Shown here: positions 4,765 through 49,583 of the stretch, piece after piece
Position numbering within the stretch: the stretch's first letter is position 1
How the letters are laid out: every line of letters starts with the position of its first letter
Position numbers and translations under genes: made by a program
NCBI GenBank assembly: GCA_030679145.1
Contig: JAUXTU010000060.1
Coordinates: forward strand, 1 to 52,865
From: Bacteroidota bacterium
GTDB taxonomy: Bacteria > Bacteroidota > Ignavibacteria > UBA10030 > UBA8401
Direction of reading: 5' to 3'
DNA length: 52,865 bases
Notes under the pieces: generated by a model
What the model was told of the DNA's origin: nothing
Seen by the model: the letters and a program-made list of their open reading frames with translations, nothing else
The model's database searches: none

Positions 4765-5694
4765 TTAATGTTCAACATTATCTAAAATAATCTTTGCATT
4801 GCGAATAATTCCTTGACACTTTGTTCTTTTTATTGGAGAGTCCTTAAACCGTTTAGAAAACTCATCTTGTGAAATAGTTACCAAATTTTTCAATGATGGG
4901 TTTATGTTCTCACTTCTTGGTAAAAATTCATTGTGTCCTGTCTGTTGTTGAAATTTATTCCAAGGACAAACATCCTGACAAATATCGCAGCCGTAAATCC
5001 ATTGGTCGAAATTTTTTCCTAATTCCGTTGCAATTTCGCCGCGATGTTCTATCGTCAAATACGAAATGCATCTATTGCTATCAACAATATACGGTTCTCG
5101 AATCGCATCTGTCGGACAAGCATCAATGCACGCAGTGCAAGTTCCGCAAAAGTCTTCCATTGGTGTATCGTAATCGAGTTTTTCCGTTGTAATAATTTCA
5201 CCAAGAAAAACCCAGGAACCAAACTCCTTTGTAATAAGATTCGTATGTTTTCCCTGCCAACCTAGACCTGCGCGTGAGGCCCATACTTTGTCCATCATTG
5301 GACCAGTATCTACGTAATATCTATTTTCTGATCCAGGTACTAATTGTTTGATGCACTCGGCAAGCGTTTCGATTCTTTTTGTCACATGAATATGATAATC
5401 ATCGCCCCATGCATACCGAGAAATTTTTCCTTCATCCAGCTTAGGTTTATGTTCCGTCGGCGTAAAATAATTTATTGCAACGCTAATTACAGATTGTGCG
5501 TTTGGAACAATATTTCGTGGATCCATTCTTCTTTCAACATTCTTTTCCATCCATTGCATTGAAGCATGATATCCACGACCCAACCAATCTTTTAAATGAT
5601 CACCTTCAACATTCAACATTTCTGCTTTTGCAATCCCAACTTTACTGAAACCTAGTTCAAGAGCCTTTGTCTTTATTTGTTCAGTAAGTGTCAT
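4765..5694 (-). CDS. queG: Epoxyqueuosine reductase QueG
   Basis: The 309-residue protein matches QueG, the cobalamin-dependent reductase that turns epoxyqueuosine into queuosine at the wobble base of tRNA. Two [4Fe-4S] ferredoxin motifs are visible: CGTCTACIDACPTDAI (C183, C186, C189, C193) and CDICQDVCPWN further on. The segment YYVDTGPMMDKVWASRAGLG carries the usual active-site aspartate (D135). Length is a little under the 350-380 of many homologues, with a short C-terminus. It lies just downstream of the repeat-flanked GIY-YIG gene. Confidence 0.95.
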   Translation of the reverse strand: MTLTEQIKTKALELGFSKVGIAKAEMLNVEGDHLKDWLGRGYHASMQWMEKNVERRMDPRNIVPNAQSVISVAINYFTPTEHKPKLDEGKISRYAWGDDYHIHVTKRIETLAECIKQLVPGSENRYYVDTGPMMDKVWASRAGLGWQGKHTNLITKEFGSWVFLGEIITTEKLDYDTPMEDFCGTCTACIDACPTDAIREPYIVDSNRCISYLTIEHRGEIATELGKNFDQWIYGCDICQDVCPWNKFQQQTGHNEFLPRSENINPSLKNLVTISQDEFSKRFKDSPIKRTKCQGIIRNAKIILDNVEH

Positions 5695-5712: not shown

Positions 5713-5747
5713 CTAATCATTGTCATTCCTGCGTAAGCAGGAATCCA
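5713..5747. repeat. Palindromic repeat family A, left unit with flank
   Basis: The unit at 5722-5747 is GTCATTCCTGCGTAAGCAGG plus AATCCA; inside it an 8-bp stem ATTCCTGC/GCAGGAAT closes a GTAA loop. The bases 5713-5729 (CTAATCATTGTCATTCC) recur exactly at 49460-49476. The unit is in inverted orientation to the copy at 6042-6067, with 23 of 26 positions matching. Two of the three differences are a compensatory T-A to G-C change in the stem. The GIY-YIG gene fills the space between the two units. Confidence 0.85.
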
Positions 5748-5748
5748 T

Positions 5749-6036
5749 TTATAGTTCAAAGAACAAATCTTTCCATTCTGGATTATTCAATTCGATCAAT
5801 TCAATTTTCCATTCACGTTTCCAACGTTTCGTCTGTGTTTCTCTTATAATTGCATCCCGAACATCTTTAAACTCTTCGAAATAAACCAACATAGTAACTT
5901 TATACTTTTGCGTAAAACCGGGAATTAAACCTTCTTTATGTTGTACAACACGATTCCTAAGATTATTGGTCATTCCAATATAGAGCGTGCCATTCTTTTG
6001 GCTTGCAAGAAAATAGGCAAAATATTTTTTATCCAT
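5749..6036 (-). CDS. Small GIY-YIG nuclease-domain protein
   Basis: This 95-residue protein is a single GIY-YIG domain of the YhbQ/UPF0213-like small type: FAYFLASQKNGTLYIGMTNN carries a variant of the first motif and the TLYIG core, followed by LRNRVVQHKEG and the late glutamate in IRETQTKRWKR. The frame is open upstream to 6069, but that extra MSCLRKQASIF is only translated repeat sequence, so I chose the ATG at 6036. No clear Shine-Dalgarno is visible. The gene sits exactly between two inverted copies of a 26-bp palindrome: 5 nt separate its start from one, and its stop codon is 1 nt beyond the other. Its function is unknown; a role in moving or cutting the palindromes is my inference. Confidence 0.85.
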   Translation of the reverse strand: MDKKYFAYFLASQKNGTLYIGMTNNLRNRVVQHKEGLIPGFTQKYKVTMLVYFEEFKDVRDAIIRETQTKRWKREWKIELIELNNPEWKDLFFEL

Positions 6037-6041
6037 AAATA

Positions 6042-6067
6042 TGGATGCCTGCTTTCGCAGGCATGAC
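6042..6067. repeat. Palindromic repeat family A, right unit
   Basis: TGGATGCCTGCTTTCGCAGG plus CATGAC. The stem ATGCCTGC/GCAGGCAT (6045-6064) closes a TTTC loop (GAAA on the minus strand). The copy is inverted relative to 5722-5747. The same left-type and right-type units recur as a pair at 49510-49583. Confidence 0.85.
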
Positions 6068-6080
6068 AAAACTTATGATT

Positions 6081-6383
6081 TTACTTTATAACAATAACTC
6101 TTCCATTCTTCACTTCGGTCTTAAATATTTTTACTCTTCCGCTGGCATTGATTGAAATCCCTGTCCGTACATCGTACGCCCAGCCATGCATTGGGCAGGT
6201 AACAATTCCATTTTCAAACATTCCCTCGTGCAATTTCTGAAATTTCTGATGCGGACACATATTGGATATTGCACAAACTTTTCCATCAACCTTGAAGAGC
6301 GCAATTTCTTCACCGTCTACTACTATGCGTTTTCCTCTGGTTTCTTTTACTTCTTCAAAATTACAAACAACAAGATCACTCAT
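6081..6383 (-). CDS. Rieske [2Fe-2S] ferredoxin-like protein
   Basis: This 100-residue single-domain Rieske protein has ligands in CPH (C43, H45) and CPMHGW (C63, H66), as in the ferredoxin components of dioxygenases and the NirD-like small subunits. It has no signal peptide or membrane anchor, so it is probably a soluble electron carrier. It follows the MBL-fold hydrolase gene by 15 nt on the same strand and may be co-transcribed with it. The physiological partner is not visible in the window. Confidence 0.93.
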   Translation of the reverse strand: MSDLVVCNFEEVKETRGKRIVVDGEEIALFKVDGKVCAISNMCPHQKFQKLHEGMFENGIVTCPMHGWAYDVRTGISINASGRVKIFKTEVKNGRVIVIK

Positions 6384-30818: not shown

Positions 30819-31192
30819 TATTTCAAGGGATGATACAATGAATCATCTTTTGGCTGCACTTCACTATAAGATTCCCCTTGAAATTGTTAACACTCGCGTC
30901 TTTTCTGCAATAAAAACATTTCCACAAAGTATTCAATCGTCTTATCATTTCATATCTTAAAAAAACTCATTTCAATACTCTCTACAATTTGTTTTTTGAG
31001 AATTTTTTACCAACATTCATTTCCATAGGTATCTGAAAAATTGTCCCGCTGTACGGGATGCCGTAAAGCGGCAGTTGTCTATTGTTATTCTGAGCGAAGC
31101 GAAGAATCTCGTTTTTATTTTTTGAGCGAAAAACCAAGATTCTTCAGATATCTCTTGCATATTGGTAGAAATCTTAAAAAGGGTAAGGATGT
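30819..31192. other. Intergenic region with a MITE-like element
   Basis: The 374-bp gap between the symporter gene and murA holds the repeat element at 31027-31155. The first part (30819-31026) contains a 40-codon open frame from 30838 to 30960 with weak support and no recognisable similarity; I see no terminator or RNA there. AAAAAGGGTAAGG just before 31193 serves as the murA ribosome binding site. Confidence 0.6.
31027..31155. repeat. MITE-like repeat family B, copy 1
   Basis: The ends AGGTATCTGAA (31027-31037) and TTCAGATATCT (31144-31154) are inverted with one mismatch. Inside are two short hairpins (CCCG/CGGG, TGCCG/CGGCA) and the unit GTTATTCTGAGCGAAGCGAA (31084-31103) followed by GAATCTC. 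The same termini and a related GAGCGxAGCGA unit recur at 44445-44584. No coding capacity. Confidence 0.65.
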
Positions 31193-47547: not shown

Positions 47548-49440
47548 TTACTGTTGAGTTGAAACTTGTTCAGGCGGCGCATCATCCGTAACAAAATATT
47601 CCTGAATCTTCTGTGCAGTCTTTTCGCCGACTACTTCAGAAAGTTGTTCAGAAGTTGCAAATTTCACCCCTTGGACTGAGCCAAACACTTCAAGCAGTTC
47701 TTTTGCTCGCTTTTTCCCCACACCTTCAATAAGATCCAATTCCGTTTGTAATGTTCGTTTATCACGCAGCGATCGGTGAAATGTTATCGCAAATCGATGA
47801 GCTTCATCGCGAATCTGTTGCAGCAATCGTAGTGCAGAAGAAGATTTTGGGATTGGCAGCGGATCACTTTGGTGAGGAACAAATACTTCTTCTAATCGCT
47901 TGGCAAGACTTATGATTGGGTGATTTTCGAGTTTTAATTCTTGTAATGATTCCAACGCACTTGAAAGTTGTCCCTTACCGCCGTCCACCATAATCAACTC
48001 AGGCAGTTCCAGCACTTCCTCTAACACACGTTTATAGCGGCGAAAAATAACTTCCTTCATACTTGCAAAATCATTCACGTCAGAAGGAGCAACCGTTCTG
48101 ATCTTAAATTTTCGGTATTCGCTTTTCTTTGGTTTGCCATCAACAAATACAACCATCGATGCAACTGTTTCAGTCCCTTGAAAATGCGAAATATCAAAAC
48201 ATTCAATTCTGCGGGGAGGTTTTTCCATTCTCAGATCTCTTTGTAAGGAACGAACTGCTGCCGGAATAAAATCTTTCTGTTTCAATTTTTGCAGCTTCAA
48301 TTCGTCAAGAAGATATTTGGCATTCTTTTTACACATTTCAAGAAGTTTTGCTATTTCGCCGTGTGAAGGAATGTGAAATGAAACTCCGCCGCTTCGTTTC
48401 AATGAAAGCCACTGCTCAACAATTGTTCTCGATTCTATATCGTATGAAAGCACCACCTCTTTCGGGATATCCAACGCTTCTAAATAATAGCGTTCAACCA
48501 GCGTTTCAATGATCTCGCTGTCAGTCTTCCCTTCAACACCATTCATATAATAATGTTGGCGGCTGATCACTTTCCCTTCGCGGATTTTAAAGATCACTCC
48601 GCACGCATCATCATCTTCCGCAGCAACAGCAACAATATCACGGTCACGAAGATCTACGTCAACAACCTTTTGTTTCGAAGAATAGATTTCCAATTGTTTT
48701 AACCGGTCGCGATATTTTGCCGCCTCTTCAAATTTCATATCTGAAGCTGAAGTTTTCATTTGTTCCTGCAACCGTTCCACAACGGCACTGTTTTTTCCGT
48801 TCAGCACTTTTGCGACCTGATCGATCATTTCATTGTATCGTTCTTCGGAAACCAATCCTTCACAAGGACCTTCACATTTTTTTATATGATAGTCCAGACA
48901 CACACGCGTTTTTTTTTTCGCGATAAATTCATCATTGATCAAATAATTACAGCTGCGGATCATAAATATATCACGGACAGTCTTTAATGCGGCACGCATC
49001 GTATTCACATCTGTATATGGACCGAATACTTTCACAGTTTTTCGATTGAACCTTCTTGCAACAAACACCCGGGGATACGGTTCTTTTGTGATGACAATGT
49101 ACGGATACGATTTATCGTCTTTAAGATTTACGTTGTAGCGTGGTTTATGAAGTTTAATGAGGTTTGCTTCAAGAATGAGTGCTTCAACTTCCGAGTCGGT
49201 GGTAATAATTTCGAGATCCGATATTTTTGCAACCATTGACGCAATGCGCGGTTCGTGATTGCGCGACGTATGAAAATACTGCCTTACTCGGTTTCGCAGA
49301 TTGACTGCTTTACCGACGTACTGGATCACTCCCTCTTTATTCTTGAATTGATACACCCCCGGGCTTGTGGGCAAACCCGCCAGTTTATCCTGCAGATCAA
49401 GTTTATCAATGAATGATATTTGGATGGGATTATTTTCCAT
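47548..49440 (-). CDS. uvrC: Excinuclease ABC subunit C
   Basis: The 630-residue nuclease has the N-terminal GIY-YIG domain (GVYQFKNKEGVIQYVGKAVN), a Cys-containing segment (CLDYHIKKCEGPCEGLVSEE), a UVR motif (SASDMKFEEAAKYRDRLKQL), the RNase H-like 5'-incision domain (FDISHFQGTETVASMVVF) and C-terminal helix-hairpin-helix motifs (IEGVGKKRAKELLEVFGSVQ). It makes the two cuts in nucleotide excision repair with UvrA and UvrB. The gap 47401-47547 downstream holds nothing I recognise. Confidence 0.97.
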   Translation of the reverse strand: MENNPIQISFIDKLDLQDKLAGLPTSPGVYQFKNKEGVIQYVGKAVNLRNRVRQYFHTSRNHEPRIASMVAKISDLEIITTDSEVEALILEANLIKLHKPRYNVNLKDDKSYPYIVITKEPYPRVFVARRFNRKTVKVFGPYTDVNTMRAALKTVRDIFMIRSCNYLINDEFIAKKKTRVCLDYHIKKCEGPCEGLVSEERYNEMIDQVAKVLNGKNSAVVERLQEQMKTSASDMKFEEAAKYRDRLKQLEIYSSKQKVVDVDLRDRDIVAVAAEDDDACGVIFKIREGKVISRQHYYMNGVEGKTDSEIIETLVERYYLEALDIPKEVVLSYDIESRTIVEQWLSLKRSGGVSFHIPSHGEIAKLLEMCKKNAKYLLDELKLQKLKQKDFIPAAVRSLQRDLRMEKPPRRIECFDISHFQGTETVASMVVFVDGKPKKSEYRKFKIRTVAPSDVNDFASMKEVIFRRYKRVLEEVLELPELIMVDGGKGQLSSALESLQELKLENHPIISLAKRLEEVFVPHQSDPLPIPKSSSALRLLQQIRDEAHRFAITFHRSLRDKRTLQTELDLIEGVGKKRAKELLEVFGSVQGVKFATSEQLSEVVGEKTAQKIQEYFVTDDAPPEQVSTQQ

Positions 49441-49459: not shown

Positions 49460-49476
49460 CTAATCATTGTCATTCC
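49460..49476. repeat. Truncated family A flank copy
   Basis: CTAATCATTGTCATTCC, identical over 17 bases to 5713-5729, but without the palindrome that follows there. It sits 34 bp before a full family A pair. Confidence 0.7.
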
Positions 49477-49509
49477 AGATAGTGTTTTAAAGAATAACAC
49501 CAGAGCTTT

Positions 49510-49583
49510 GTCATTCCGGCGTACGCCGGAATCCACGTTTTTGATTTATTTTCAAGATGGATGCCAGCTTTCGCTGGCATGAC
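49510..49583. repeat. Palindromic repeat family A, inverted pair without gene
   Basis: The left unit is 49510-49535 (GTCATTCCGGCGTACGCCGG plus AATCCA; stem ATTCCGGC/GCCGGAAT, loop GTAC). The right unit is 49558-49583 (TGGATGCCAGCTTTCGCTGG plus CATGAC; stem ATGCCAGC/GCTGGCAT). A 22-bp spacer lies between. The left/right base differences (ATTCC versus ATGCC, loop GTAN versus GAAA) are the same as in the pair that flanks the GIY-YIG gene. Confidence 0.85.

Follow-up and report, generated by a model that had tools for sequence, protein, structure and literature searches.

Between a QueG gene and a Rieske-domain protein gene, the window (the whole 52,865-nucleotide stretch of DNA analysed) carries a small GIY-YIG nuclease gene that is enclosed by two hairpin elements in inverted orientation. 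Another pair of these elements, with no gene between them, is found near uvrC. The features are as follows.

4765 to 5694, minus strand: QueG gene (PF08331), one anchor of the orthologous-site comparison
5722 to 5747, plus strand: CGTC-type REP element with TGTC tag and CCA tail, left side of the box; stem ATTCCTGC/GCAGGAAT at 5725-5732/5737-5744, loop at 5733-5736, plus strand
5749 to 6036, minus strand: 95-aa GIY-YIG nuclease gene (Ssn-like), motif KRWKREWK, 'CC' class
6042 to 6067, minus strand: second REP element, inverted, right side of the box; stem ATGCCTGC/GCAGGCAT with a compensated pair
6081 to 6383, minus strand: Rieske-domain protein gene (PF00355), the other anchor of the orthologous-site comparison
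47548 to 49440: uvrC, in which a PF01541-type (GIY-YIG) domain is also present
49510 to 49535, plus strand: REP element of a gene-less dimer
49558 to 49583, minus strand: partner REP element of the gene-less dimer, after a 22-bp spacer and upstream of uvrC

The gene order at the site is metallo-beta-lactamase-fold gene, Rieske gene, unit and QueG gene. On its stop side the GIY-YIG coding sequence is separated from the left element by 1 nt, and on its start side 5 nt separate it from the right element. The two elements are equal at 23 of 26 positions, with two of the three differences making up one compensated stem pair (T-A to G-C). A preliminary description of the locus had given the same coordinates, match and spacing, and its gene-less inverted pair at 49510-49583 is likewise present, 69 bp upstream of uvrC. 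Its count of a single GIY-YIG gene in the window was mistaken, given the GIY-YIG domain of uvrC. Just upstream of the gene-less dimer, a partial GTCATTCCAGATAG at 49469-49482 could be what is left of a third element that has decayed or been truncated. The longest open reading frame of the boxed gene begins inside the REP (from 6069) and would add a REP-coded N-terminus; the same kind of REP-derived extension (6037-6069 in the window) is seen at other loci, and public annotations extended in this way may have wrong starts. Rfam gave no match in the window, PHROGs, NCBIfam and the phage genomes searched gave none, and the single weak PADLOC match (E 0.008) was judged to be chance.

Each 26-nt element is composed of an unpaired GTC at the 5' end, an 8-bp stem, a 4-nt loop and an unpaired CCA at the 3' end; the element is thus not palindromic throughout, as the earlier term '26-bp palindrome' had it. 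DNA folding of the two box elements yielded -7.8 and -9.2 kcal/mol, and for either one 0 of 200 shuffles were equally stable. The window's genome (G000, 3.83 Mb in 123 contigs) contains 31 copies with up to 3 mismatches, as compared with 0 for the reversed control. Stem pair 9-18, which the search pattern left free, is complementary in 31/31 copies and occurs as all four pair types, and stem pair 6-21 is T-A in 21 copies, G-C in 9 and unpaired in 1. It is therefore the hairpin, and not its letters, that is conserved.

These elements fit the definition of CGTC-type REPs, having the tag, an AT-starting stem of 8-9 bp, a loop of 4-5 nt and the CCA tail. The tag reads TGTC in the window and CGTC or TGTC at other loci. 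The available text of Di Nocera, De Gregorio and Rocco (2013; PMC3733652) describes CGTC REPs as a tag, an AT-starting stem, a loop and a CCA tail, equates dRS3 with CGTC-1, reports that the dimers are often of two stem types, and concludes that the superfamily has no dedicated transposase; 'GIY' is absent from its main text. The likeness extends from tag, stem, loop and tail to mixed-stem dimers, whereas the systematic flanking of a GIY-YIG gene seen here contrasts with the lack of a dedicated transposase stated in that paper.

The inverted dimers that characterize CGTC-type REPs are also present in G000, and the preliminary description had called for paired and single copies to be surveyed there. 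Nine inverted pairs within 300 bp were found among the 31 copies, with GTC outward in all nine, while 13 copies are single. Seven of the pairs are gene-less dimers with spacers of 5-24 bp, all in one orientation, that of the box, and five of these seven combine one TTCC and one TGCC stem, the same T/G mix as in the box. The remaining two pairs enclose a gene (spacers of 294 and 291 bp), and in both cases it belongs to one GIY-YIG subfamily. PF01541 is matched at 8 places in G000, and four of the eight genes form this subfamily, being 58-65% identical to the first. Three of these, among them the window gene, have a box made of GTCATTCC / GTCATGCC elements whose GTC ends point outward; the unit on contig C94 has long, 9-nt loops and lies outside the 31 copies. 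The fourth subfamily gene (L003) is found amid another repeat, GTCATTCTGAGCG...GAAGAATC, of which there are 28 copies. This second dispersed class, GTCATTCTGAGCGNAGCGAAGAATC, occurs in the window at 31084-31108 and at 28 places in G000, and it flanks L003. A GIY-YIG gene outside the subfamily (L008, G000:C66:20219-20404) has a gene-less REP dimer (G000:C66:19955-20011) 207 bp away, and the window's uvrC is likewise near one.

The window protein matches PF01541 as its sole domain (E 2.3e-15 for the longer open reading frame). Residues Y8, Y19, R29, H33, E66 and N85, which we take to be the catalytic residues of the GIY-YIG protein, are invariant in 38 sequences, the window protein among them. 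The AlphaFold2 model, built from the window protein together with 69 of the 72 cross-phylum proteins, has a pLDDT of 96.2, and among solved folds UPF0213 proteins and Slx1 come closest to it. The UPF0213 proteins BH0048 (1zg2) and EF2693 (1ywl) are the only two solved sequences matched and rank 1 and 7 among the nearest folds, but they differ from the window protein in showing just 23-24% identity to it in the structural alignment. In the model, the class motif described below spans the turn between two helices (59-71 and 74-84), a position that could plausibly be where DNA is read.

When 100 genomes were searched with a profile of the four G000 subfamily genes, 64 of them, counting G000 itself, had matches at E <= 1e-10. 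From 114 records, 99 were used, namely 74 strong homologues and 25 weak relatives (GIY-YIG genes under 90 bits, taken from a longer list). Broken, short and edge-cut genes were left out. The duplicates L067 (of L001) and L200 (of L079) were also dropped from the analysis, as were the genes L002, L006 and L008, which do not match the profile of the four. Elements within 150 bp of a gene were scored by a fixed grammar (GTC, A[TC]NNN, 3-60 nt, the reverse complement, C). This grammar replaced a whole-flank inverted-repeat score, which reached at least 20 in 19/75 own pairings and 148/5550 foreign pairings and separated the two only partly, because a given repeat class looks much the same from locus to locus.

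Among the 74 strong homologues, an element is present upstream in 65, downstream in 56 and on both sides in 51, with a clean outward box in 35; the upstream hairpin is absent in 9 and the downstream one in 18. In the same loci, 83 neighbour open reading frames of at least 100 aa, and thus not size-matched to the GIY-YIG genes, have an element upstream in 21 cases, downstream in 20 and on both sides in 5. Of the 25 weak relatives, which are of similar size, a single one has it on both sides, although the grammar ignores a different repeat carried by several of these genes. Fisher's test gave p 1.7e-17 for 51/74 versus 5/83 and p 7e-9 for 51/74 versus 1/25, so that the check proposed in the preliminary description, whether small GIY-YIG genes are flanked more often than chance, had a positive outcome.

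One could suppose that REPs merely gather in intergenic space beside small genes, and they do lie beside many unrelated genes, including upstream of the 21 neighbour open reading frames just mentioned. The preliminary description had named a random spread of palindromes beside unrelated genes as evidence against its proposal. In part this is what is seen, with 4 of the 31 copies boxing the gene and most others adjoining unrelated genes, but the frequency of flanking at the GIY-YIG genes greatly exceeds that in the controls. The neighbour-frame and weak-relative controls refute a chance or generic neighbourhood, as does the own-class matching inside genomes (37/40, below), and we give this reading almost no credence.

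The same arrangement was found well beyond the first set. In further genomes of the window's phylum, 91 genes among the matches listed have an element upstream in 69, downstream in 68, on both sides in 57 and on any side in 80, with 33 outward boxes. The cross-phylum set comprises the best 80 of at least 565 candidates from named genomes, of which 8 were unusable. Its record titles include Omnitrophota, Nitrospirae, Chloroflexi, Proteobacteria, Patescibacteria groups, Spirochaetes and Bradyrhizobium, among others. The 72 usable loci have 59 elements upstream, 60 downstream, 52 on both sides and 67 on any side, with 48 outward boxes; the candidates were picked by two peptide patterns, one of them of KKW type, so that almost only the CC class was tested. 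Both the 91-gene and the 72-locus counts include a few identical proteins, whereas the tree and within-genome class counts given below do not. Homologues lacking the repeats, which had been the other sign looked for against the proposal, are few, with no element on either side in 4/74, 11/91 and 5/72. The reverse case is G021, a genome 91% complete that has 29 repeat copies and no gene match at E 1e-10. Of the 17 genomes in which four-nt-loop repeats number 8 or more, 10 carry a CC-class gene, versus 13 of 83 others (Fisher p 5e-4); this hand tally misses long-loop repeats, leaves edge-cut genes unclassed and is no more than supportive. The GIY-YIG gene and the repeats are thus a specific, recurrent pair that is real and widespread.

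The pairing extends to the type of hairpin. Stems fall into the classes ..CC, ..CT and ..GC, and these are tracked by a protein motif near residues 70-77, with K-W-x-R-x-W-K accompanying CC, G-W-x-R-x-K-K accompanying CT and A-G-S-R-x-K-K accompanying GC. For genes with an element in the discovery set, protein and hairpin match in 30/32 (CC), 15/16 (CT) and 14/14 (GC), and the cross-phylum set gave 57/59 for CC. Loci with an element in the new genomes of the phylum match in 20/26 (CC), 12/16 (CT) and 9/13 (GC), where the four GC misses are of the near class AC. The motif rule leaves 11/74, 27/91 and 7/72 proteins unclassed. For the within-genome count given below it was widened, after the replication results had been seen, to read every G in the second place of the motif as GC; this affects L314 and L319 in that count, both of which matched. 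On a tree of 234 proteins, 201 of them labelled, the hairpin class changes 16 times as compared with 64-75 times in 100 shuffles. Two or more classes are predicted in 15 genomes, which together have 40 classed genes with an element. Hairpins of the gene's own class flank 37 of these genes, the other class flanks 1, and 2 have neither; host taxon is therefore no explanation for the class pairing. Protein class and hairpin class are specifically paired, both across phyla and within genomes. A residue 'code' for the hairpin class was considered and rejected, there being too few independent switches (1-2 on supported branches) beyond clade level; because the motif switches so rarely, its dependence on the stem is inseparable from common descent.

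Comparison of orthologous sites showed that gene and hairpins are present or absent together. G010, from another genus of the same family, carries the same unit at the same Rieske-QueG place, and the unit and adjoining proteins are 74-76% identical to those of G000. Across this common site the aligned region is about 74% identical and the enclosed DNA agrees at 218/294 positions, while the hairpins are identical at 52/52, a pattern indicating that the hairpins are constrained more strongly than the gene, or are held alike by conversion. In all six genomes of the window's genus that have the site (G002-G007), and in G009 of the family, Rieske lies next to QueG with no GIY-YIG gene between them, and no element was found within 450 bp upstream of QueG in these seven genomes; QueG was not found in G001. 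The window-site unit would thus be old, or lost repeatedly, because it is common to another genus yet absent from six genomes of its own.

A second comparison was made in genus g100, where each of the 41 genomes searched has a match to at least part of the G260 region. Twenty of the regions were compared, and the gene is absent from the site in 19 and present in one (G294). At 16 of the 19 gene-less sites the alignable flanks are 17-250 bp apart, and the other 3 hold larger inserts; of the 16 compact sites, 13 are without an element and 3 have one. The flanks of G314 are 95-97% identical to those of G260 and the unit is absent, so loss must occur as well as gain. The empty orthologous sites proposed as a check in the preliminary description therefore exist, both in the window's family and in g100, and the gene and its repeats likely move as one unit.

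The boxes resemble dimers that hold a gene in their spacer (294 and 291 bp versus 5-24 bp), as would be expected if a free-standing homing endonuclease gene had inserted into pre-existing REP dimers. The empty orthologous sites, however, hold no dimers, with no element at the Rieske-QueG site in seven genomes and none at 13 of the 16 compact g100 sites (one at each of the other 3), which argues against a homing gene entering existing dimers and leaves this explanation improbable.

Block-wise presence and absence, with empty sites free of repeats, instead fits an autonomous mobile element in which the GIY-YIG nuclease transposes the REP-gene-REP block and the gene-less dimers are MITE-like derivatives. 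Azospirillum lipoferum has the gene with REP dimers between sufB and sufC, and in an Aeromonas caviae record the 3 elements in 4.9 Mb are all at the gene. Dispersed paralogues without common flanks occur within single genomes (L085/L103 in G047 and L314/L319 in G184), and their DNA similarity ends near the REP ends. In 196 of 315 pairs of this kind, whatever their origin, a match spans the gene. Of their 200 similarity ends that reach 15-250 bp past the gene, 128 are no more than 8 bp away from an element boundary, versus 35.7 expected; the pairs are not independent, however, and similarity would end at REP ends regardless because REPs are alike. Flanks are common to 20/21 protein pairs more than 90% identical (some of them tandem or duplicate records), to 9/26 pairs at 80-90% and to 14/311 pairs at 70-80% identity. 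Near-identical proteins thus mostly keep their flanks and movement is therefore slow, which, together with a window-site unit common to two genera, weighs against a mobile element. We know of no strand-transfer activity for GIY-YIG enzymes. The preliminary proposal of a RAYT-like unit accordingly stands as regards the specific recurrent gene-repeat pair, the empty orthologous sites and the dimers oriented as the box, but no target duplication or fresh insertion was seen, the intergenic junctions having diverged too far to align by eye. An autonomous mobile element is a serious possibility that we hold tentatively.

GIY-YIG genes are also found side by side. Tandem or near-tandem arrays of 2-3 GIY-YIG genes occur at L311, L341 and L330 and at G150:C31:267291-274106; the proteins in the three named loci are 94-99% identical, which suggests that the arrays arose by local amplification.

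A copy that two genera have in common at the window site, its hairpins unchanged, is equally what a host-serving nuclease might leave, namely one that trims or restricts repeat-bearing single-stranded DNA and tunes uptake or repair, the box merely linking enzyme and site. A Neisseria enzyme of this type is said to have an effect on natural transformation. Patchy presence among species of one genus and varied genomic places are, in contrast, unlike a fixed host function, and we regard a host-serving role, too, as credible but tentative.

The GIY-YIG proteins named Ssn, the subject of a Nature Communications study of 2025 (Chenal, Veyrier and co-authors), reportedly cut the Neisseria repeat (NTS) in a single-strand-specific manner, and the study is said to describe thousands of homologues with their own sequences. 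The homologue of the window protein in Neisseria gonorrhoeae is 53.9% identical over 94% of the query (E 6e-26) and lies amid 246 dRS3-like copies in a 2.17-Mb record; this locus is probably Ssn. Its setting among dRS3-like repeats points to the window unit being, most likely, an Ssn-type single-strand nuclease with cognate repeats. Some traits of the Ssn family are found here as well, in a small protein with a single GIY-YIG domain and conserved active-site residues, and a cognate repeat in many copies. The window unit differs in having far fewer copies (31) and in forming a boxed one-gene unit with empty orthologous sites. This kind of nuclease and repeat is, from what is reported of the Ssn family, already known, and the window system would join that kind.

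A likeness to REPIN-RAYT systems, as far as the available sources describe them, lies in hairpin repeats that flank a nuclease gene and in dispersed gene-less inverted dimers. The window elements have a GTC and no GTAG tag, and the boxed gene is matched by PF01541 only, with no HUH tyrosine transposase; the unit is therefore not a member of the REPIN-RAYT family. By analogy, it would work like a RAYT-REPIN pair with another nuclease.

Taking the evidence together, we consider it probable, with good confidence, that the unit is a small Ssn-type GIY-YIG nuclease with a recognition element of its own on either side, in the form of CGTC-type REP hairpins. The protein would most likely recognise the unpaired GTC and the hairpin on single-stranded DNA and cut beside the hairpin, with binding and cutting of single strands assumed from what is reported of the Neisseria relative. 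The single-stranded state might arise on the lagging strand, in DNA taken up or during repair. With less certainty, cutting at the box may allow the REP-gene-REP block to be copied or excised at low rates, and gene-less REP dimers copied along with it may be its non-autonomous derivatives, in the way that REPINs relate to RAYTs.

Bacterial intergenic regions commonly hold short hairpin repeats, and the CGTC class was published without an enzyme (PMC3733652). Systematic pairing with a tiny nuclease provides a candidate enzyme for each repeat class, makes the question of who moves or cuts CGTC repeats directly testable, and provides a naturally occurring range of small nucleases whose targets can be read. 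A bolder and more speculative extension, to which we give somewhat less than tentative support, is that CGTC-type REPs form a mobile family across all bacteria, with GIY-YIG nucleases as the driving enzymes; REP-gene-REP units would be autonomous, dimers would be their derivatives, and the hairpin class would be tracked by a short motif of helix-turn-helix type (K-x-[WG]-x-R-x-[WK]-K). If true, the REPIN-RAYT arrangement would have been invented a second time, independently, from CGTC REPs and the unrelated GIY-YIG nucleases. No paper joining GIY-YIG with dRS3 or REP terms was found in the literature searched, a search outside which the 2025 Ssn study falls. GIY-YIG is mentioned in PMC548270 (a model of the restriction enzyme SfiI), and the CGTC REP term occurs in PMC12306157 in the reference list only.

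Several further observations concern GIY-YIG genes elsewhere. Genes of other subfamilies in the weak set (L152, L154, L158, L160, L161 and L162) have no GTC..C box and often lie beside CCTGAGCG...GTCGAAGG, for example GTCATCCTGAGC...GTCGAAGGATGAC at L158; each GIY-YIG clade may have a separate repeat class. The genes L002, L006, L173 and L175 directly adjoin tRNA genes (Pro/Ser, Arg, Asn and Val), and pieces of tRNA sequence are seen by eye on the far side of each, as if the genes had been inserted into tRNA genes. The cross-phylum match L281 is in a metagenome-assembled genome titled Halobacteria archaeon and may be archaeal or contamination. On a Planktothrix agardhii plasmid (L369), a CT-class unit with repeat arrays has an MmeI-type restriction gene on one side and drmA, the helicase gene of DISARM, on the other.
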